A stretch of 64,000 nucleotides of DNA from Thermofilum sp. (GTDB lineage Archaea; Thermoproteota; Thermoprotei; Thermofilales; Thermofilaceae). The position numbers were made by a program, and so were the translations under genes. The notes below the pieces were generated by a model, which did not search any database, was not told where the DNA came from, and was given only the letters and a program-made list of their open reading frames with translations. The stretch lies in contig JAVYKX010000002.1 in NCBI GenBank assembly GCA_038741495.1, positions 124,001-188,000 of the forward strand. Reading direction: 5' to 3'. Positions 471 to 29,105 of this stretch are shown piece by piece (position 1 is the first letter of the stretch; each line of letters begins with the position of its first letter).

Positions 471-1829
471 ATGAGTGAGCCGGGAAGATCTCCCAAGAGG
501 CGTGTCATCATACTGGGCGCTGGGGGGAGGGATTTTCACAATTTTAATGTTCTTTTTCGCAGCAACCCTGAGTACGAGGTTGTAGCTTTTGCGGCCACTC
601 AGATCCCCAACATAGATAACCGGCTATATCCCCCGGAGCTTGCGGGCCCCCTGTACCCCAATGGTATACCGATTATCTCGCTGAGCAAAATGGAGGAGAT
701 TATCAAAAAGAATCTCGTAGATGAGGTTTTACTATCGTACAGCGATATAACGTGCGAGGAGCTTGCAGAGATTGTGAACAAAGTAGTCTCGATGGGGGCG
801 GACTTCGTCGTGCCCTCGCCGAGGAGAACTATGCTCAAGTCCAGTAAGCCTGTGATCGCGATTACTGCTTCGCGGACGGGGGCCGGGAAGAGCACCGTCT
901 CGCGTTACGTGGCACGGATCCTTAGAGAGCTAGGAGTGCGCTACGTGATCGTCAGGCATCCTATGCCTTACGGAGATCTCAGCAAGTCCGTGGTTCAAAG
1001 GTTTGCCAGCTACGAAGATGTGGATAAGTACAACTGTACGATTGAGGAGAGAGAAGAGTACGAGCCGCATATAGCTGAGGGTAGCGTAGTTTACGCTGGT
1101 GTTGATTACGAGAGAGTACTACGGGAAGCTGAGAGAGAAGGCGATGTGATCATTTGGGATGGAGGTAACAACGATGTACCGTTCTTCTGGCCTGACCTTC
1201 ACATCACTGTCGTGGATCCTACTAGACCTAAGGACGTTTTAACCTCTTTCCCTGGTGCCGTGAACGTAACGTCAGCAGATGTCATAGTGATCAACAAGGT
1301 TAATCTTGCTCCTCGCGAGCATGTAAAGCACGTTCTCCAGACAGTCAGGTCCGTGAACCCCCGAGCAGAGGTGATAGAGGCTGAGTCAGTACTGCGAGTA
1401 GACAAGCCCGAACTGGTGCGTGGTAAGAGAGTCGTTGTCGTAGAGGATGCTCCCACCGTTACACACGGCTCGCTAAGCCATGCAGCAGGCTATCAGGCAG
1501 CAATCGAGTATGGCGCAAGCGAGATAGTTGATCCAAGAGCTTACGCTGTTGGTAGCTTGAAAGAGGTTTACGATAAGTACCCATGGCTTGGGCGCGTTGT
1601 TCCGGCACTCGGCTACGGGGAGACGCAAATGAGAGATCTCGAGGAAACGCTGAACCGTGTTGATGCCCACACGATAATTCTCGGTACTCCCGCGGACATA
1701 TCCCGCGTACTGAAGCTCAACAAACCTGTAGTGAAGGTATTCTTCGAGCTGAGGGAGACGGAGGGCAAGAGGCTCCGCAAGATAATCGAAGAATTCGCTA
1801 AGCGCGCCCTAGCGGTTTACAGCAAGTGA
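471..1829 (+). CDS. COG2403-type P-loop GTPase, cyclic 2,3-diphosphoglycerate synthetase-like
   Basis: This 452-residue protein has an N-terminal Rossmann-like part (VIILGAGGRDFHNFN near residues 12-26) and a central P-loop, TASRTGAGKST, near residue 132. Between them is a region ending VVPSPRRTMLKSSKPVIAI. This is the layout of the COG2403 predicted GTPases, annotated by similarity to cyclic 2,3-diphosphoglycerate synthetase, which phosphorylates and cyclises 2,3-DPG in methanogens. Whether this organism makes cDPG is not shown by the sequence. The family name is sound; the reaction is inferred. Confidence 0.75.
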   Translation: MSEPGRSPKRRVIILGAGGRDFHNFNVLFRSNPEYEVVAFAATQIPNIDNRLYPPELAGPLYPNGIPIISLSKMEEIIKKNLVDEVLLSYSDITCEELAEIVNKVVSMGADFVVPSPRRTMLKSSKPVIAITASRTGAGKSTVSRYVARILRELGVRYVIVRHPMPYGDLSKSVVQRFASYEDVDKYNCTIEEREEYEPHIAEGSVVYAGVDYERVLREAEREGDVIIWDGGNNDVPFFWPDLHITVVDPTRPKDVLTSFPGAVNVTSADVIVINKVNLAPREHVKHVLQTVRSVNPRAEVIEAESVLRVDKPELVRGKRVVVVEDAPTVTHGSLSHAAGYQAAIEYGASEIVDPRAYAVGSLKEVYDKYPWLGRVVPALGYGETQMRDLEETLNRVDAHTIILGTPADISRVLKLNKPVVKVFFELRETEGKRLRKIIEEFAKRALAVYSK

Positions 1830-1891
1830 GCCCGAACCCCAGTTAGGTATAAGTTACCGCTTTTTGGGAAAGATCGGCGGAGTGTCGGGGT

Positions 1892-2962
1892 GTGCCTCAA
1901 GAGGGTAAACTGCTAGTACTCTGCGTCGACAGGGATAACGATATAGGCACGACGCTAGGTGTGCAAACCCCCATACTAGGAGAGGAGGCTTTGACGAGAG
2001 TAGCTATAGAGTTCGCGCTCCGAAGGCCTGAAGACTCGGATGCGAATGCCATCTTCGCGGCTCTTCAAACGCTTCGCGACTTACGGAGAATGGGTTACGC
2101 TGACCGCTGCGAAGTTGCTCTACTTGCCGGCACAGAGGAGGAGGGTGTTCAGGCCGACATGAAAATCCTGCAAGAGCTAGACGAAGTTCTGCGTAATGGA
2201 GAGTTCACGGGCGCGATACTCGTGTCGGATGGCCCCACGGACGAGGTCGTGGCCCCTCTGATACAGTCGAGAATTCCTCTCATCTCGATACGTAGGGTGG
2301 TCGTCCAGCAGTCAAGGGGGGTAGAAGAGACTTTTGTTCTTCTGGTGAATTACGTGAAGAAACTCTTCCTAGAGGAGAAGTACAGGAAGTACTCAATGGG
2401 GCTTACAGGGGCATTTCTAGCAATCTACACGATTCTCTCGGCTGTGCTACCCCAGTTTGCTTGGACTCTCGTTCTCGCTTCTCTCGGAGGCTTTATGTTC
2501 GTAAAGGGGTACGGGATTGATAAGAGGGTTGCCCAGATCTACCAATCAGGGTCTGTGAGATTTATCGCATTCGTGCTCGCGCTGCTAATCTCTGTACTCG
2601 GCTTTCTCCAAGGTTTTGCGAGAGTTCTACAGCTTCAGAGAATGGACGCAGGAGCTATAGCAGCTTTTGCGCTAGCACCCGTAGGAGGTCAGCTGATAGC
2701 AGTGGATTTATTCGTAATCGGTGCGACGCTGTTCCTCGTCGGAGGGATGCTGGAAGAGCTGATTGCGGGGAGAGTTTTGAGAATCTCGCAAGCGCTGTTC
2801 GTAACCGCTGTGCTTCTGTCCAGGCAAATAGTTGTCGAGATGGCTAAGTATCTTGCTGGAGGGGGTAGCATTCAGGGTGTTCTCACCTGGTCATTCGTAG
2901 AGTTGGCAGTGGTCGTTATCGCGGTATCAGTAATGTACATGGAAGCTGAGCGCTCTAAGTAG
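1892..2962 (+). CDS. DUF373 family membrane protein
   Basis: Starts at GTG 1892. The first 160 residues are soluble and begin LLVLCVDRDNDIGTTLGVQTP, the signature of the archaeal DUF373 family. From about residue 168 to the end there are several hydrophobic segments (for example FLAIYTILSAVLPQFAWTLV and VIAVSVMYMEAER), so the C-terminal half is membrane-embedded. The gene follows the COG2403 gene by about 60 bases, with a TATA-like ggtataag between them. It precedes the methylase by 8 bases and is probably co-transcribed with it. Function is unknown for the family. Confidence 0.85.
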   Translation: MPQEGKLLVLCVDRDNDIGTTLGVQTPILGEEALTRVAIEFALRRPEDSDANAIFAALQTLRDLRRMGYADRCEVALLAGTEEEGVQADMKILQELDEVLRNGEFTGAILVSDGPTDEVVAPLIQSRIPLISIRRVVVQQSRGVEETFVLLVNYVKKLFLEEKYRKYSMGLTGAFLAIYTILSAVLPQFAWTLVLASLGGFMFVKGYGIDKRVAQIYQSGSVRFIAFVLALLISVLGFLQGFARVLQLQRMDAGAIAAFALAPVGGQLIAVDLFVIGATLFLVGGMLEELIAGRVLRISQALFVTAVLLSRQIVVEMAKYLAGGGSIQGVLTWSFVELAVVVIAVSVMYMEAERSK

Positions 2963-2970
2963 AGAGCATC

Positions 2971-4053
2971 ATGGAGCGGTACTATCTTCTGCTAAGCCAG
3001 TGTGCAGGAAATTGTGGGACGGCCGAGGCTCTACATGTTTTGGGTAAAGTTTGTGGATTTCGAGTGGAAGTCGCCGGGCAGGGCGTAATTAGCATCGTAA
3101 GCAAGAACTCTGAGAATATAGTGAGATGTTCATCCAAACTCGTGTGCGCACGATGCATCGTAAAGGAGGTTTATCGTGCTAGTCTGAGTGAGGGATGGGA
3201 CATAGCTCTGGGGGCCGCCGCGGAGGTTCTGAGCAGAGAGTTAGCTATGCGCGCATCTAAGGAACGGGTCGGAGTGGACGTGGAGGTGAGCGATGTCGCG
3301 CTTAGGCTTAGTGCCGCTGAGAGAGCACTAGTGGCGGAGAAGCTGATCAGCATGCTGCGTGCTCGGGATAACCGACTAGTAACGCTGAGAAGCACACCCG
3401 ACTTTCACATATGGGTTGGTATTCTAAGCGACTACCTGTCTTTTGGAGTAATCCTGCAAAAGTTCAGAGGAGATCGGTATAGAAGTAGAGAGCCTCACAG
3501 GAGAGTCTACAGAAGACCTTTTGCCCTGGTTCCTCAAGTAGCGCGCCTCATTCTTAATTTCTCGCTTAATCCCTTGCACGGCCCCTTCCTCGATGCATTC
3601 TGCGGAACGGGTGCAACGCTGATCGAAGCAGCGCTCGAGGGGTTCTACGGGGTTGGGGTCGACCTCGACTACGAGAACATTAGAGGCGCGCGCCGCAATT
3701 CTCTACAGCACGGTGTTTACCACCTTATCGATCTAATCATTAGTGATGCCGCGCACCTCCCCTTTAGGAGAGATGTGTTTGCGCTAGCAGCCTTTGACCC
3801 TCCTTACGGTCGGGCTGCATCGTGTAAGGGAAAGCAGCCCCACCTGCTGCTCACAGAAGCACTGGAGCGGGTACTGGCTTCTCTAAAGCCGGGGGCTCGC
3901 GCGGCTTTCCTCTCTCCCGGGAGCGAGGAGTACTCAGCCGTCGCCGAGTCCGCTGAAAGGGTATGCTCGATCTACGTTCACTCCTCTCTCGTGAGAGTCC
4001 TGTGGGTGATAGAGAAGAGCTTTGCGAAAAACCAGCAGGCTGAACTTCTATGA
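2971..4053 (+). CDS. tRNA G10-type N2-methyltransferase (Trm11/TrmG10 family)
   Basis: The C-terminal half holds a SAM-binding Rossmann core (LDAFCGTGATLIEAAL near residue 208, then GVGVDLDYENI) and the catalytic motif DPPYG near residue 270. DPPY is typical of N2-guanine and N6-adenine methylases. The N-terminal part resembles a THUMP-bearing region, though I see it less clearly. Archaeal TrmG10 makes m2G or m2,2G at tRNA position 10, and this is the likeliest role. The ATG of RNase Z overlaps its stop (ATGA at 4050-4053), so the two tRNA-processing genes are translationally coupled. Confidence 0.8.
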   Translation: MERYYLLLSQCAGNCGTAEALHVLGKVCGFRVEVAGQGVISIVSKNSENIVRCSSKLVCARCIVKEVYRASLSEGWDIALGAAAEVLSRELAMRASKERVGVDVEVSDVALRLSAAERALVAEKLISMLRARDNRLVTLRSTPDFHIWVGILSDYLSFGVILQKFRGDRYRSREPHRRVYRRPFALVPQVARLILNFSLNPLHGPFLDAFCGTGATLIEAALEGFYGVGVDLDYENIRGARRNSLQHGVYHLIDLIISDAAHLPFRRDVFALAAFDPPYGRAASCKGKQPHLLLTEALERVLASLKPGARAAFLSPGSEEYSAVAESAERVCSIYVHSSLVRVLWVIEKSFAKNQQAELL

Positions 4054-11646: not shown

Positions 11647-12000
11647 GTGTTCGTGAAGATCGTGGTGCGGGTAATGGACACTGCGCATAAAGGATGTAAA
11701 GTTCGCGTAGAGGTAATTATCTCGAGCAGCGATTCTTCCTTTCTGGATTCTCTCTACGCTGCTTTTCTCCCGGAGTCGGGCGCTACTCCTAGGTACAGAG
11801 CAGAGATCTCTATCGCCAGAGCTCCCGAAGCTTTTCTCGTGAATCTGCTCAGCGAGGATATCTCATCGTTGAGGGCATCTCTTAACACAATCTTAAGGGC
11901 GCTGGGCGCCATTTTTTCGGTCTCGGAGAGGTATTTGCCAGCTCAGCAGGCCGCGGCGCAGGCTGAAGAAAACCGCGCCCCTCACCGCGCTGCGCAGTAG
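11647..12000 (+). CDS. pcc1: KEOPS complex subunit Pcc1
   Basis: 117 residues from a GTG abutting the Brix stop. Core features are a two-helix, three-strand pattern ending with ISSLRASLNTILRALGAIFSV, which fits the Pcc1 dimerisation helix. KEOPS installs t6A at tRNA position 37; Pcc1 binds tRNA and contacts Kae1. The last 20 residues are Ala/Gln-rich and run straight into the GC-rich decayed transposon, so the C-terminal tail may have been altered by that insertion. A second Pcc1-like gene is at 55357. Confidence 0.75.
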   Translation: MFVKIVVRVMDTAHKGCKVRVEVIISSSDSSFLDSLYAAFLPESGATPRYRAEISIARAPEAFLVNLLSEDISSLRASLNTILRALGAIFSVSERYLPAQQAAAQAEENRAPHRAAQ

Positions 12001-12009
12001 CCTCCGCGC

Positions 12010-12205
12010 GCCAACATCCAAACCCCACTCGCCGATAAACTACGCGCCTGGCTCCGCGAGCATCCGAGTGTCTTAGCGCCGAGTTTCGAGCGCCAGAGCC
12101 CCCCCTTCCCGGGACTCTGCCGGCGACGGCGCTGTGCCCGGGGGCTCCGCGCGCGGGATCGAGGGTCCACCCCCGCTACCAACCGGGAGGCCCCCCTCCG
12201 GGGAT
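12010..12205 (+). pseudogene. decayed C-terminus of a TnpB-family gene
   Basis: Reading frame +1 from 12010 gives PLADKLRAWLREHP then SVLAPSFERQSPPFPG. This aligns with TLADTLKGWLKAHP and ALARNYNNPAGPASRD in the intact TnpB at 24370-25827, and later REAPLRGCAPATGR aligns with its tail. No zinc finger or RuvC part remains, so only about the last 60 codons survive. It is followed directly by the same structured right end as the intact element. The stretch is much GC-richer than its neighbours. Confidence 0.8.
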
Positions 12206-12364
12206 GCGCCCCGGCGACGGGGCGCTGAAAAGAGAGGGTTAGGCCACCGCCGGAGAGGCGGACAGCCGACCCCATGACCCGCCCCGGCCATCCCAAGCGG
12301 AAGCCGCGGGGCGGGCCCCAGAGGCCCGCAACGGCCGAAGGGGGAGATGAACACCGGCGCGGGA
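12206..12364 (+). mobile_element. TnpB-type right end / candidate guide-RNA scaffold, copy A
   Basis: Begins with the hairpin GCGCCCC-ggcgac-GGGGCGC and continues through ATGACCCGCCCCGG, where the tnpB stop overlaps in the intact copy. A long stem CCCGCCCCG/CGGGGCGGG is closed over an unrelated loop, and the copy ends gaacaccggcgcggga. The same order occurs at 25765-25932. The stem is kept while the loop differs from the intact copy, which suggests selection for RNA structure. The promoter for the downstream KaiC-like gene starts about 15 bases after it. Confidence 0.75.
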
Positions 12365-12378
12365 CAGCACTGAGGGCA

Positions 12379-22653: not shown

Positions 22654-23117
22654 GAGCCGCTCGCCCGCTGCACTATCCTGACATCATCAGCGCTTATAGT
22701 TACGGGTAGAACGTAGGCCGCCTCCGAAAGCTCTACTTTCACTTCATTCTTCACCTTATCGATGCTGATTATCTTACCCCTCATCCCTGCGAAAGGTCCT
22801 CGGATTATCTCAACGATGTCGCCTGTATTCAGCTGCTCGGCAAGCGGTCTCGGCTTAAGAAGGGTTTCCATCTCCTCTATCGAAACAGCACCCCTGACAA
22901 CCCCACGCACATGCTTAATGCCGTAAGCCAGTCTGCGTGCCTCGTACATGCCTTCACTCTCCACGAATATCATCCCCTTGAGGCCTGGGATTACGAGAAG
23001 CGAATTTACCTTATAGTCTCCTCCTGCAGCTCTATTATTCAGAAGCACTGCTACGTTGTACTCCTGTCCGGCGGTAACCTTCAAAGCATAGAACTTGATT
23101 CTCTTCTCCGTCTCCAT
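22650..23117 (-). CDS. spt5: transcription elongation factor Spt5 (NusG family)
   Basis: 155 residues. An NGN domain (FYALKVTAGQEYNVAVLL onward) is followed by a KOW motif, GDIVEIIRGPFAGMRGKIIS. It binds RNA polymerase with Spt4 and aids elongation. Standard archaeal order secE-spt5 is kept. Part of the KOW-coding DNA (22741-22784) recurs in altered form upstream of secE. Confidence 0.95.
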   Translation of the reverse strand: METEKRIKFYALKVTAGQEYNVAVLLNNRAAGGDYKVNSLLVIPGLKGMIFVESEGMYEARRLAYGIKHVRGVVRGAVSIEEMETLLKPRPLAEQLNTGDIVEIIRGPFAGMRGKIISIDKVKNEVKVELSEAAYVLPVTISADDVRIVQRASGS

Positions 23118-23409: not shown

Positions 23410-23419
23410 GTATCAGCTA

Positions 23420-23475
23420 CCTCATTCTTCACCTTGATGTTGATTATCTTACCCCTCACCGCAGAGAATAAATGC
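23420..23475 (-). repeat. diverged copy of the spt5 KOW-coding segment
   Basis: Minus-strand bases here match spt5 22741-22784 closely. The peptide reads FSAVRGKIINIKVKNEV against FAGMRGKIISIDKVKNEV in Spt5, with one codon deleted in frame. There is no room for a whole gene. It is a leftover of a duplication or recombination at the island edge. Confidence 0.75.
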
Positions 23476-23483
23476 AGTCCCAT

Positions 23484-23696
23484 TTAATGCTTTCCGTGGG
23501 CTGGAGCTACGCTTGGTACCTGCTGGACGTGGGCACTGGGGGAGAAGAGCTGGAAGAGCCCGCAGCAGCTGGCGGCGCCAACCTTTAAGTCGTGCTCGCC
23601 GAAAAGCTCCTGGAGCTCTGCGCCCCCGACCCGCTCCCCCTCCCCCAGCCTCGCCCTGAGCTCGCGCCTGCCTTCGCCGCTCGCCAGCCGCTCCAC
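23484..23696 (-). CDS. small gene 2 of a repeated bicistron, copy 1
   Basis: Starts around GTG 23696 (MERLASGEGRRELRARLGEG), about 70 residues, basic then Cys-containing. The start sits directly after a 33-codon ORF whose tail GDWLTVYTAFATG ends in TGA. A homologous pair, GWLTVYAAFATG followed by MEGLASSGGMRELRVRLGEL, lies at 28771-28945. The coiled, charged look would suit a small antitoxin-like protein, but that is speculation. Confidence 0.35.
   Translation of the reverse strand: MERLASGEGRRELRARLGEGERVGGAELQELFGEHDLKVGAASCCGLFQLFSPSAHVQQVPSVAPAHGKH
23487..23588 (+). CDS. possible 33-codon ORF in the island
   Basis: ATG at 23487 after a TATA-like cccatttaatg. It encodes VGWSYAWYLLDVGTGG then an acidic/Ala tail. 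It is antisense to the end of the minus-strand small gene. No family is recognised; it may be chance or a fragment. Confidence 0.2.
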   Translation: MLSVGWSYAWYLLDVGTGGEELEEPAAAGGANL

Positions 23697-23802
23697 ACCA
23701 CTCACCCCGTGGCGAAAGCCGTGTACACGGTGAGCCAGTCACCCCTCAGCCTCATGAGAACCGTGCGCCCCGAGGCGCTGAACGCCACGCTCACCCGCTC
23801 CA
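23697..23802 (-). CDS. small gene 1 of a repeated bicistron, copy 1
   Basis: About 33 codons from a TTG or GTG near 23800: a beta-rich peptide VSVAFSASGRTVLMRLRGDW ending LTVYTAFATG. A TATA-like gatttaaaac precedes it. The same tail occurs at about 28915-28945 and, altered to GGWLTLYTAFAA, at 24235-24285. Repeated occurrence argues it was once a coding unit, perhaps now the C-terminal fragment of a larger protein. Confidence 0.35.
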
Positions 23803-23892
23803 AGCCGCAGTTTTAAATCTTCACCTCGCGCGGAGGCGCCTCGCTAGCCCCGGAGCACGAGAGAGAAAAAAGGAGGAAAAGCTTGAGGGTTT

Positions 23893-24243
23893 TCAGCGGG
23901 GTAGGGCTTCCTCTAGTACCTGCTTAACCTTTTTCTCGAGAAGCTTCCCCGCGTGAAGGAAGGTCGCGCCCTCCTCTGTGACAACCCTCACGTCTTCCGG
24001 CGGGATAATGTTCCCAGCCCTCAGCGCCACCACCGCCTCCTCGGCGCTCACGCTCCTCCTGAACCTGGCGGTGAAGAGCCTCGAGGGAGCGTACCCGACC
24101 CTCACCCACGCTACATCACCCCTCAGCACCACCGACAGGCTGTAGAACATCAGAGTATCCCAAACCTTGCTGCCCGCACCCTCCAAGCCCTCCCTCACTA
24201 CAGCGATTAGCGAGCTGAAGTGCTCCAGCAGGCAGAGAAGCAC
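23893..24243 (-). CDS. uncharacterised island protein
   Basis: 116 residues if started at GTG 24243. A longer frame reaches 24669 but is antisense to tnpB and unlikely. The sequence has a helix (LLCLLEHFSSLIAVVREG), strands VWDTLMFYSLSVVLRGDVAW and VRVGYAPSRLFTARF, then a charged C-terminal helix EKKVKQVLEEALPR. No family recognised. Just before its start lies a copy of the LTLYTAFAA tail seen in the bicistrons, so this may be a related cassette. It is divergent from tnpB. Confidence 0.45.
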   Translation of the reverse strand: MLLCLLEHFSSLIAVVREGLEGAGSKVWDTLMFYSLSVVLRGDVAWVRVGYAPSRLFTARFRRSVSAEEAVVALRAGNIIPPEDVRVVTEEGATFLHAGKLLEKKVKQVLEEALPR

Positions 24244-24302
24244 GCTGCAAAGGCTGTGTAGAGGGTGAGCCAGCCTCCCCTCAAGCGCCGGCACCACTCT
24301 CC

Positions 24303-24319
24303 CGGGGGCGACGCCCCCG
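24303..24319. repeat. strong hairpin in the left part of the tnpB unit
   Basis: CGGGGGC-gac-GCCCCCG is a perfect inverted repeat. It lies between the divergent island gene and the tnpB promoter. IS200/IS605-type elements carry subterminal hairpins, so this could be the left-end structure. Confidence 0.4.
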
Positions 24320-24333
24320 CGTCCCTTGCGGCC

Positions 24334-24344
24334 ATAAATAGGGT
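24334..24344 (+). promoter_or_regulatory. tnpB promoter
   Basis: cataaataggg lies about 26-36 bases before ATG 24370 in otherwise GC-rich DNA. This spacing supports 24370 rather than an earlier GTG as the tnpB start. Confidence 0.6.
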
Positions 24345-24369
24345 TTGGGCAAGTGAAGCTGGGGAGCGG

Positions 24370-25827
24370 ATGGGGGCCAGCACGGCGAGGGGAGCCCCCG
24401 AGAAGAGCGAGGCCCCTGGGGAGGGCTTCAGGGTCTTCAGGGTGGAGTTGAACAGGAGAGTGAGGGGAGAGCTCGCGAAGCTCCACCAGCGCCTCGTACA
24501 GAGGGATCCTTCGCTGCCGAAGAACGCGTTCCGCTACCACGAGAGCTGGGAAAACGAGGATGCGAACATGCGGGAGATGCGGGAGCAGGCGGGGAAGCGA
24601 TCCCCGCCGAAGCGTAGAGCGGCGTACTACCTGCTGGCTAAGGTCGTCAAGGATGGAAAGAGGATCCACGGCAGCAAAGGTGCTTCAGTAATCGTCGACC
24701 TCGGCAGGAGCGAGCTGCGGATCCCCTGCGCTGGGATCCGGATCCCCCTGAAGCCAGGGCTGGTCAAGGCGCTGGAGGGGGAGCTCCGGCTCGCTCCTAA
24801 GCCGGAGTTCGCCGTCCAGCTGACGTGCCGGGGCAGGCTGCGCATCGTCGCTTTCAGGAGCCCGCCGAAGTGGTGGCTCTACAGGGAGGAGTGCGCGGAC
24901 TTCGACGCGGTCCGGCTCGGGCCGCCCGTCAGGGTGGTGGGGGTGGACGTGAACAGCGTGTACGGCATTGCCGCCGTGGTCTTCGACCTCACCGAGGGCG
25001 GCGTGAGGGTGCCGAAGTCTCCCTTCCGCCTGCAGCCGCCCAACGACGCCCTCTACCTGGCGGAGGCGAGCGTGCTCCGGAAGATCGCCCAGGGCCTGCC
25101 GCCGGAACCGCCGGACAACGCCACGGAGGAGGAGCTCCAGCTCTGGCAGTGGGCCCTGGAGAGGGTGAAGCGGCTATCCTCCAGGGTTGGGGCGCTGACC
25201 ACTGAGAGGGCTGACAGGCTCCGCTGCCAGCTGGAGCGGGCGGCGAGGCTGGCGAGGAGGCGGTGGGCCCGGAAGCTGCTGGGGGAGCTGAGGCAGCTCA
25301 TCCGCGGGGCGAACGGCAGGGCAGTAATCGCTATCGACGCCCCCGACCCTGAGAGCCTCAGGAACAGCAAGCTGCAGAAGACCTACCTGCACGTGACGAA
25401 ACACATCAAGAACCTTTGCCGGTACGAGGGGGCGCTCTACCGGAGGGTGAGGGCTTCCGGCAGGGCGTGCCCCCTCTGCGGCAGGTGGTGCGAGGAGGTC
25501 GCTCACCGCTACTACAAGTGCAGCCACTGTAGCATTGTCTTCGACAGGGATTACGGTGGAGCTTTCAACGCAGCCCTCGAAGCCCTACCACCGACGCTCG
25601 CCGACACGCTGAAGGGGTGGCTCAAAGCCCACCCCAAAGCGCTCGCAAGGAACTACAACAACCCTGCAGGCCCCGCTTCCCGGGACCCCCGCCCGGACGT
25701 CGAGCCCGTTCGGGGGGCGCTCCCGGGGGGCCGCGTGCGCGACGAGGGGGAGAGCAGCCGGGAGGCGCTCCGGCGACGGGGCGCTGAAAGGCGCGAGCAG
25801 GCCGCCCTTAAGCGGCCGCCCCCATGA
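24370..25827 (+). CDS. tnpB: TnpB-family RNA-guided nuclease
   Basis: I choose ATG 24370 (485 residues) because a TATA box lies 26-36 bases upstream; a GTG at 24265 falls inside repeat DNA. The RuvC-I motif is VVGVDVNSVYG with Asp193. RuvC-II is VIAIDAPDPES with Asp323 where most TnpBs have Glu. A zinc finger uses C367, C370, C384 and C387. RuvC-III is DRDYGGAFNAAL (Asp392/394). Family members cut DNA using a guide RNA made from the element's right end, and here the stop codon lies within that right end. No TnpA or serine recombinase is in the window. The Glu-to-Asp change may lower activity. Confidence 0.85.
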   Translation: MGASTARGAPEKSEAPGEGFRVFRVELNRRVRGELAKLHQRLVQRDPSLPKNAFRYHESWENEDANMREMREQAGKRSPPKRRAAYYLLAKVVKDGKRIHGSKGASVIVDLGRSELRIPCAGIRIPLKPGLVKALEGELRLAPKPEFAVQLTCRGRLRIVAFRSPPKWWLYREECADFDAVRLGPPVRVVGVDVNSVYGIAAVVFDLTEGGVRVPKSPFRLQPPNDALYLAEASVLRKIAQGLPPEPPDNATEEELQLWQWALERVKRLSSRVGALTTERADRLRCQLERAARLARRRWARKLLGELRQLIRGANGRAVIAIDAPDPESLRNSKLQKTYLHVTKHIKNLCRYEGALYRRVRASGRACPLCGRWCEEVAHRYYKCSHCSIVFDRDYGGAFNAALEALPPTLADTLKGWLKAHPKALARNYNNPAGPASRDPRPDVEPVRGALPGGRVRDEGESSREALRRRGAERREQAALKRPPP

Positions 25828-25932
25828 CCCGCCCCGGTCGTCCACGGCCTCGGCTCTGCTCGGGGCTGGGGAGGCCGAGGGGCGGGCCTGGAGGCTTAAG
25901 CCCGTGAAGGGGGATGAGCACCGGCGCGGAAC
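25765..25932 (+). ncRNA. candidate guide RNA (reRNA/omega-RNA) and right end of tnpB, copy B
   Basis: It begins with GCGCTCC-ggcgac-GGGGCGC, passes the tnpB stop at ATGACCCGCCCCGG, forms the stem CCCGCCCC/GGGGCGGG with an inner CCTCGG/CCGAGG, and ends CACCGGCGCGGAAC at 25932. In TnpB systems the RNA overlaps the 3' end of the gene and the guide is read from the DNA just beyond. The presumptive guide would begin gtatcagctggttggc, whose first nine bases also occur at the left edge of the island. Expression is not shown. Confidence 0.6.
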
Positions 25933-25941
25933 GTATCAGCT

Positions 25942-28723: not shown

Positions 28724-28770
28724 ATCTCTCTAGCAGCCACACCCATTACTGGTTAAATCTATTACTGGTG

Positions 28771-28906
28771 ATAGGGGGTGAGCGCCCCCTCGAGGGCCTT
28801 GTTGAGCTCCTCGTCGAAGCTCAGCCCCTCCCGCCTCGCCAGCTCCCCCAGCCTCACCCTCAGCTCCCTCATACCCCCGCTGCTCGCGAGCCCCTCCATG
28901 CCTTCA
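28771..28906 (-). CDS. small gene 2 of the repeated bicistron, copy 2
   Basis: MEGLASSGGMRELRVRLGEL then an Arg/Glu-rich helix ending EELNKALEGALTPYHQ, about 45 residues from the ATG near 28901. Its start follows closely the TGA of a frame ending GGWLTVYAAFATG. It is homologous to the gene at 23484-23696 in the first 20 residues but diverges afterwards. The last codons fall in the left direct repeat. Helical and charged; function unknown. Confidence 0.4.
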
Positions 28907-28937
28907 CCCCGTGGCGAAAGCCGCGTACACGGTGAGC

Positions 28938-29033
28938 CACCCGCCCCGGTCGTCCACGGCCAAGAGCCGGGGAGGCCGCGGGGCGGGCCCCGAGGCCCAA
29001 GCCGGTGAAGGGAGATGAGCACCGGCGCGGAAC
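28938..29033 (+). ncRNA. solo right end / candidate guide-RNA scaffold, copy C
   Basis: Contains acccgccccggtcgtccacg, nearly identical to copy B, the closing strand ggggcgggcc, and the terminus gagcaccggcgcggaac. The inner loop is shorter than in B but the outer stem is intact. No TnpB coding remains here, so any RNA would have to use the nuclease made at 24370. The presumptive guide starts attactggtgctgc, and its first ten bases are repeated at the left edge of this insertion. Confidence 0.55.
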
Positions 29034-29105
29034 ATTACTGGTGCTGCTTCTGCCGGAACACAGGCTGCATCAAATTCAAAAACCCCTCCCCCCAAAGCAC
29101 TTGAG

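Follow-up and report, generated by a model that had tools for sequence, protein, structure and literature searches.

The 263 bp sequence at positions 28,771–29,033 (plus strand) of the DNA analysed here from Thermofilum sp., a heat-loving archaeon, which we will refer to as element C, is best explained, with a probability that we place at roughly 0.78, as a non-autonomous derivative of a family of TnpB elements, which arose by an internal-deletion fusion between short repeats, would have been mobilised in trans, and has kept its guide end. The window, i.e., the entire stretch that was analysed, is 64,000 nucleotides long. The ends of C are defined both by homology to other copies and by the direct repeats that abut them, and no tnpB gene is present within 28,771–29,033, in agreement with a preliminary description of this region. 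The proposal made there of a non-autonomous, guide-carrying element is upheld in part, as C is a tnpB-less member of a TnpB family with an omegaRNA-like right end, and such elements were found in three genomes.

The direct repeats bordering C are exact copies of the 10-mer ATTACTGGTG, located on the plus strand at 28,761–28,770 and 29,034–29,043. They had been noticed earlier, together with a near copy placed at about 28,744, and all of them are real; the near copy, ATTACTGGTT, lies at 28,745–28,754, 16 bp upstream of the left ATTACTGGTG, where it overlaps a TATA-like element of the minus-strand rpl LX promoter (as read from the sequence). No third exact match of ATTACTGGTG is present in the window. 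The probability (p) that a 10-mer is matched at one given offset is about 1.5e-6 in this composition, and random 10-mers were repeated at the ATTACTGGTG spacing in 1 of 200,000 draws. On the left, homology to copies L002/L004 begins at 28,772, and on the right, homology to further genomic copies ends at 29,033; both repeats adjoin ends that are set independently in this manner. The ATTACTGGTG pair behaves like a target site duplication (TSD), and TSDs of this family have been seen by empty-site comparison (see below). Because the neighbouring LX and tRNA-Ala genes adjoin without an insertion in the related genomes G001, G003, G004, and G005, and also in G002, where the tRNA is inverted, the insertion of C is specific to the source lineage. 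The intergenic DNA at this empty site is too diverged in the five relatives for copies of ATTACTGGTG to be counted.

In the preliminary description C was regarded as a solo right end containing a small bicistron, and neither of these interpretations is correct. The segment 28,772–28,947 derives from the left end of the family, showing 82% identity to L056b over 178 columns, with a truncation of about 97 bp in comparison to L056b and L062, and hence C is a left–right fusion. The supposed bicistron is a single antisense ORF of 45–86 codons, a remnant of gene X, of which the 45-codon ORF (28,762–28,899, minus strand) retains the N-terminus and a shortened C-terminus. Gene X is a repeated gene of the family, oriented away from tnpB, and within the genus it is found only in the source genome. 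No Pfam match was obtained for gene X, for the ORF of C or for the small gene Y described below, and Rfam searches on the window detected only tRNAs. The left-end segment includes a conserved hairpin region, CTCACCCCGTGGCGAAAGCC..TACACGGTGAGCC (28,904–28,938), belonging to repeat family D1, which has three copies in the window. The natural left tip, seen in L056b and L062, is the palindrome CCCTATAGGG, located 97 bp farther out than the tip of C. The right end, or omegaRNA-like core (28,939–29,033), shares 94% identity with its counterpart in L057a and 79% with that of copy B. Bases 1–176 of C match the left end and bases 168–262 the right end, and the overlap between them corresponds to a 9-nt microhomology, ACCCGCCCC (28,939–28,947), that is found in C, in the left end of L056b and in the right end of B. 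As the left- and right-end matches share this 9-nt sequence, the comparison establishes that C consists of a left-end piece joined to an omegaRNA-like right end, the internal deletion between the short repeats having removed tnpB together with its promoter. The resulting junction is unique in the genome, and therefore it is possible that tnpB was lost after insertion. The termini of C (ATAGGGGG.. and ..GCGCGGAAC) are not inverted repeats.

Element C is part of a sizeable family, whose copies were examined in genome stretches around each of them. The source genome (G000; 1.6 Mb) contains 18 copies of the right end (..GATGAGCACCGGCGCGG) and about 13 copies of the left part. A near-full-length tnpB frame, decayed in one case, precedes six of the 18 right ends and is lacking from the other 12; the close subfamily is represented by four intact, near-full-length tnpB genes. 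Thermofilum sp. NZ13 (G003) and its sister, G004, contain many diverged relatives (37% protein identity), whose right ends are of this same type and which often lack tnpB. Two empty sites of the family could be read in this G003/G004 pair. Within the window, element B (23,419–25,932, plus strand) carries an intact tnpB gene (24,370–25,827) for a divergent TnpB/Cas12-fold protein, the nuclease that C would need in trans, and is followed by a right end or omegaRNA-like core at 25,827–25,932 (repeat families D2 and D8). This element is flanked by the 9 bp sequence GTATCAGCT at 23,410–23,418 and 25,933–25,941, the right copy also constituting the start of its guide. Its first ~50 nt (23,419–23,468) resemble nusG DNA at 22,741–22,793, ~680 bp upstream, with 85–88% identity, as if a fragment of the host nusG had been captured at the left end. 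A second tnpB-less remnant (11,940–12,365, plus strand) is comprised of an X fragment, a 3' remnant of tnpB and a right end; a pcc1-like ORF upstream of it ends within the remnant, and its C-terminus therefore seems to be element-derived.

Deleted forms are also found elsewhere in the family. L061 and L052a show the same tnpB-less deletion at two loci with different flanks, and two mini-elements of G004 (L133 and L134) are built like C, with overlaps of 15 and 11 nt at the junction; these are old shared insertions, which gave no empty site. At one locus G003 contains only a right-end stub (L148, G003:C31), whereas the G004 counterpart (L092, G004:C1:33200-42000) consists of a full tnpB element and about 5 kb of additional sequence, and hence a deletion can give rise to solo right ends. 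In addition to these forms, a kptA-like (RNA 2'-phosphotransferase) gene is interrupted by a tnpB element in L056 (G000:C2:459000-469000, 1542–3241). Fragments of a SWIM zinc-finger gene and the small gene Y, which looks winged-helix by eye, recur inside the elements L143 and L144 (G003) and L097 (G004), and a minus-strand ORF of L097 has a weak Pfam SWIM match that is below the cut-off.

The elements of this family generate TSDs of 9–12 bp, though these are not seen in every copy. In G004, L097 has CCGGCTACTTC on both sides, and the orthologous site of G003 contains a single CCGGCTACTTC and no element; likewise, L103 of G003 is flanked by CATCGTTGAGGT, which is single in the empty site of G004. 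These two comparisons yield TSDs of 11 and 12 bp. Additionally, a tnpB-less element present in both G004 and G003 (L137/L175) has the 10 bp sequence CCTACTCGAC placed precisely at both the left tip and the right end, and the flanks of L098 match at 9 of 10 positions. In the source genome, in addition to the 9 bp repeat of element B, L061 shows a repeat, TCATGAGCGAT, of 9–11 bp that includes the start codon of the next ORF downstream, and in L055 a 9 bp direct repeat is accompanied by a 62 bp inverted copy of the flank, which extends the element on the right. As exact-prefix scans for TSDs are noisy, with 8–9-mers occurring by chance, only repeats that abut element ends or have an empty site were retained. 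Of 12 copies with an intact left tip in G003 and G004, 10 lack a TSD, and the duplication is therefore either not universal or has been erased by age or recombination. No shared motif was seen to the left of 12 left tips or to the left of the TSDs, the number of sites being small. Two of these loci have further structural features. The L137/L175 element (G004:C1:216000-220000 and G003:C1:118000-123000) is 2.9 kb long with both left tip and right end intact, and carries a gene for a multi-span membrane protein (303–375 aa) in the place of tnpB, an arrangement that is like gene capture. L055 (G000:C3:1-12000, 1886–3841) is a tnpB element whose left side bears an inverted right end, an arrangement that may reflect a fold-back event or an assembly artefact.

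The TnpB proteins of this family are only distantly similar to those known. Their Pfam and NCBIfam matches are below the cut-off; the match to PF07282 is weak, yet it is present in 11 of 11 members, and a profile search matched Fanzor2/TnpB chains. The AlphaFold model (pLDDT 75) aligns with Cas12/TnpB structures, among them ISDra2 TnpB (8h1j) with a Z-score of 12.7 and an rmsd of 6.5 over 301 residues, and on the basis of this predicted structure the protein is a divergent member of the TnpB/Cas12 fold. Across the 11 aligned members there is no variation at D193, D323, and D394 or at four zinc-ligand cysteines. As judged by alignment position, the RuvC-II site is occupied in all 11 homologues by Asp323, where Glu is usual in TnpB/Cas12.

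The guide end of C has been retained in large part. The whole 95-nt core is present and folds like that of element B, with the same long GC stem; this stem is kept in 15 right ends, with only one pair changed on both sides. C lacks the hairpin GGCCGCC..GGCGGCC, which directly precedes the core in all 11 of the other copies that were aligned; it has also lost the tnpB promoter, and no alternative promoter is apparent on the plus strand. As in the omegaRNAs of other TnpBs, the putative guide, ATTACTGGTGCTGCTTCTGC (29,034–29,053), is placed 3' of the right end, and its nucleotides 1–10 are the right copy of ATTACTGGTG; the guide has three exact 20-mer matches in IMG/VR. It had been suggested that the guide seed would match the left flank of C itself. 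Such a match is present, but it covers only 10 nt and is the TSD itself. As far as is known, TnpBs need a longer guide match than this. A full 20-nt match exists only in the empty allele; the occupied left junction provides the 10-nt TSD match, and at the occupied right junction the original left neighbour of the target is absent. A role of C as a trans-acting guide is possible.

The family shows a consistent pattern, with a precise right end, variable left ends and internal deletions at microhomologies of 9–15 nt (C, L133, and L134). In the explanation that we favour, tnpB and its promoter were lost from C by the deletion across the 9-nt repeat, its left end being 5'-truncated relative to the natural left tip, and elements of the family would be mobilised by machinery supplied in trans. 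This machinery would require a precise right end and tolerate truncated left ends, as in a one-ended, Helitron-like transposition, and it would be neither a Y1 TnpA of the source genome nor a reverse transcriptase: no match to the Y1 transposase PF01797 was found in G000, nor any to RVT_1 (PF00078) in seven genomes of the genus, while the control searches produced matches. The main reason for the retention of the omegaRNA-like end in C would then be its additional role as the end used in transposition. If C were transcribed from outside, the TnpB of element B or of its sisters could load the guide of C and cut the empty allele. That this actually takes place, with a transcript of the right end being taken up by a TnpB from another locus and directed against the empty LX/tRNA-Ala site so as to aid the persistence of C, is doubtful. 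The intact core, its 94% identity to a tnpB-carrying copy with the same long GC stem, and the four intact tnpB genes in the genome point in this direction, but the deleted promoter, the missing upstream hairpin, and the replacement of the RuvC-II Glu by Asp323 in all 11 proteins argue against it, and no conserved TAM was seen. We regard with similar reservation the broader proposition of a TnpB family moved by a TSD-generating machinery and accompanied by satellites without a nuclease, namely C, the mini-elements, and the element in which a membrane-protein gene has taken the place of tnpB, each with an omegaRNA end that would direct TnpB in trans to the empty site of the satellite itself.

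A different history, in which a 5'-truncated tnpB element was inserted with a TSD and later lost tnpB between the 9-nt repeats, so that C itself never moved, has only slightly less than an even chance of being correct. Such loss in place is compatible with the anatomy described for the favoured explanation; the occurrence of the junction in C alone, the old shared insertions L133/L134, and the comparison of the G003 stub with the full G004 element, which indicates that in-place loss happens, are in its favour, but tnpB-less derivatives occur at more than one locus (L061/L052a), and in L137/L175, which lacks tnpB, both ends are intact and a TSD is present. Given the near copy ATTACTGGTT, 16 bp from the left repeat, there is a small remaining probability that the site contained repeats before the insertion. 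Nevertheless, it is improbable that the repeats already stood in tandem in the LX promoter region and that C is an ordinary TSD-free insertion of the IS200/IS605 type, since both repeats adjoin homology-defined ends and comparable repeats are found in several other members, two of them proven by empty sites. Lastly, an RNA-mediated, target-primed insertion of the kind known from LINEs, which yields a precise 3' end, truncated 5' ends and TSDs and involves template switching, could explain the truncations, the microhomology junctions, the captured flank in L055 and the variable 9–12 bp TSDs, but the lack of RVT_1 in the seven genomes makes it very improbable.

In relation to known systems, the family shares with IS200/IS605 TnpB-only (IS1341-type) elements and their PATE/MITE derivatives a tnpB gene, an omegaRNA-like right end, subterminal hairpins, the lack of terminal inverted repeats and the existence of internally deleted derivatives. 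However, IS200/IS605 and IS607 elements are, to our knowledge, described as making no TSDs, whereas the Thermofilum family makes duplications of 9–12 bp, and the Y1 (HUH) TnpA expected for IS200/IS605 is missing from G000 in the PF01797 search. Like a MITE, C is a short internal-deletion derivative of an autonomous element, but MITEs have terminal inverted repeats, which C lacks, and many copies of one deleted form, whereas the junction of C is unique and the other form has two copies (L061 and L052a). Stand-alone omegaRNA loci have been reported for IscB/TnpB systems; C is similarly a putative guide scaffold without an adjacent nuclease gene, but differs in being bounded by element ends and a TSD. 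TnpB-only elements have been described as lacking TSDs (PMC3627910), and in a literature search we found no case of prokaryotic TnpB elements with them. By analogy, the closest described behaviour appears to be that of CRe-1/2/3 of Chlamydomonas, which are Fanzor1-bearing non-autonomous Helitrons that keep their 3' end intact, are often truncated at the 5' end, and show internal deletions, TSDs of 7–19 bp and captured 5' sequence (Bao and Jurka, 2013; PMC3627910). The Thermofilum family shares with them the precise 3' end, the truncated 5' ends and a TSD at truncated copies, but it carries an archaeal TnpB in place of Fanzor, has TSDs also at the intact left tip (L097 and L137), and shows no TTTT target preference.

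TnpB is the ancestor of the Cas12 nucleases, and the movement of TnpB elements is generally attributed to single-strand (Y1) or serine-recombinase chemistry, which leaves no duplication. A TnpB family with 9–12 bp duplications implies a different partner machinery, and the Thermofilum family would represent a natural archaeal parallel to the Fanzor-bearing Helitrons. Copies of the family that have no nuclease but retain the guide end would provide TnpB with a natural set of multiplex guides.
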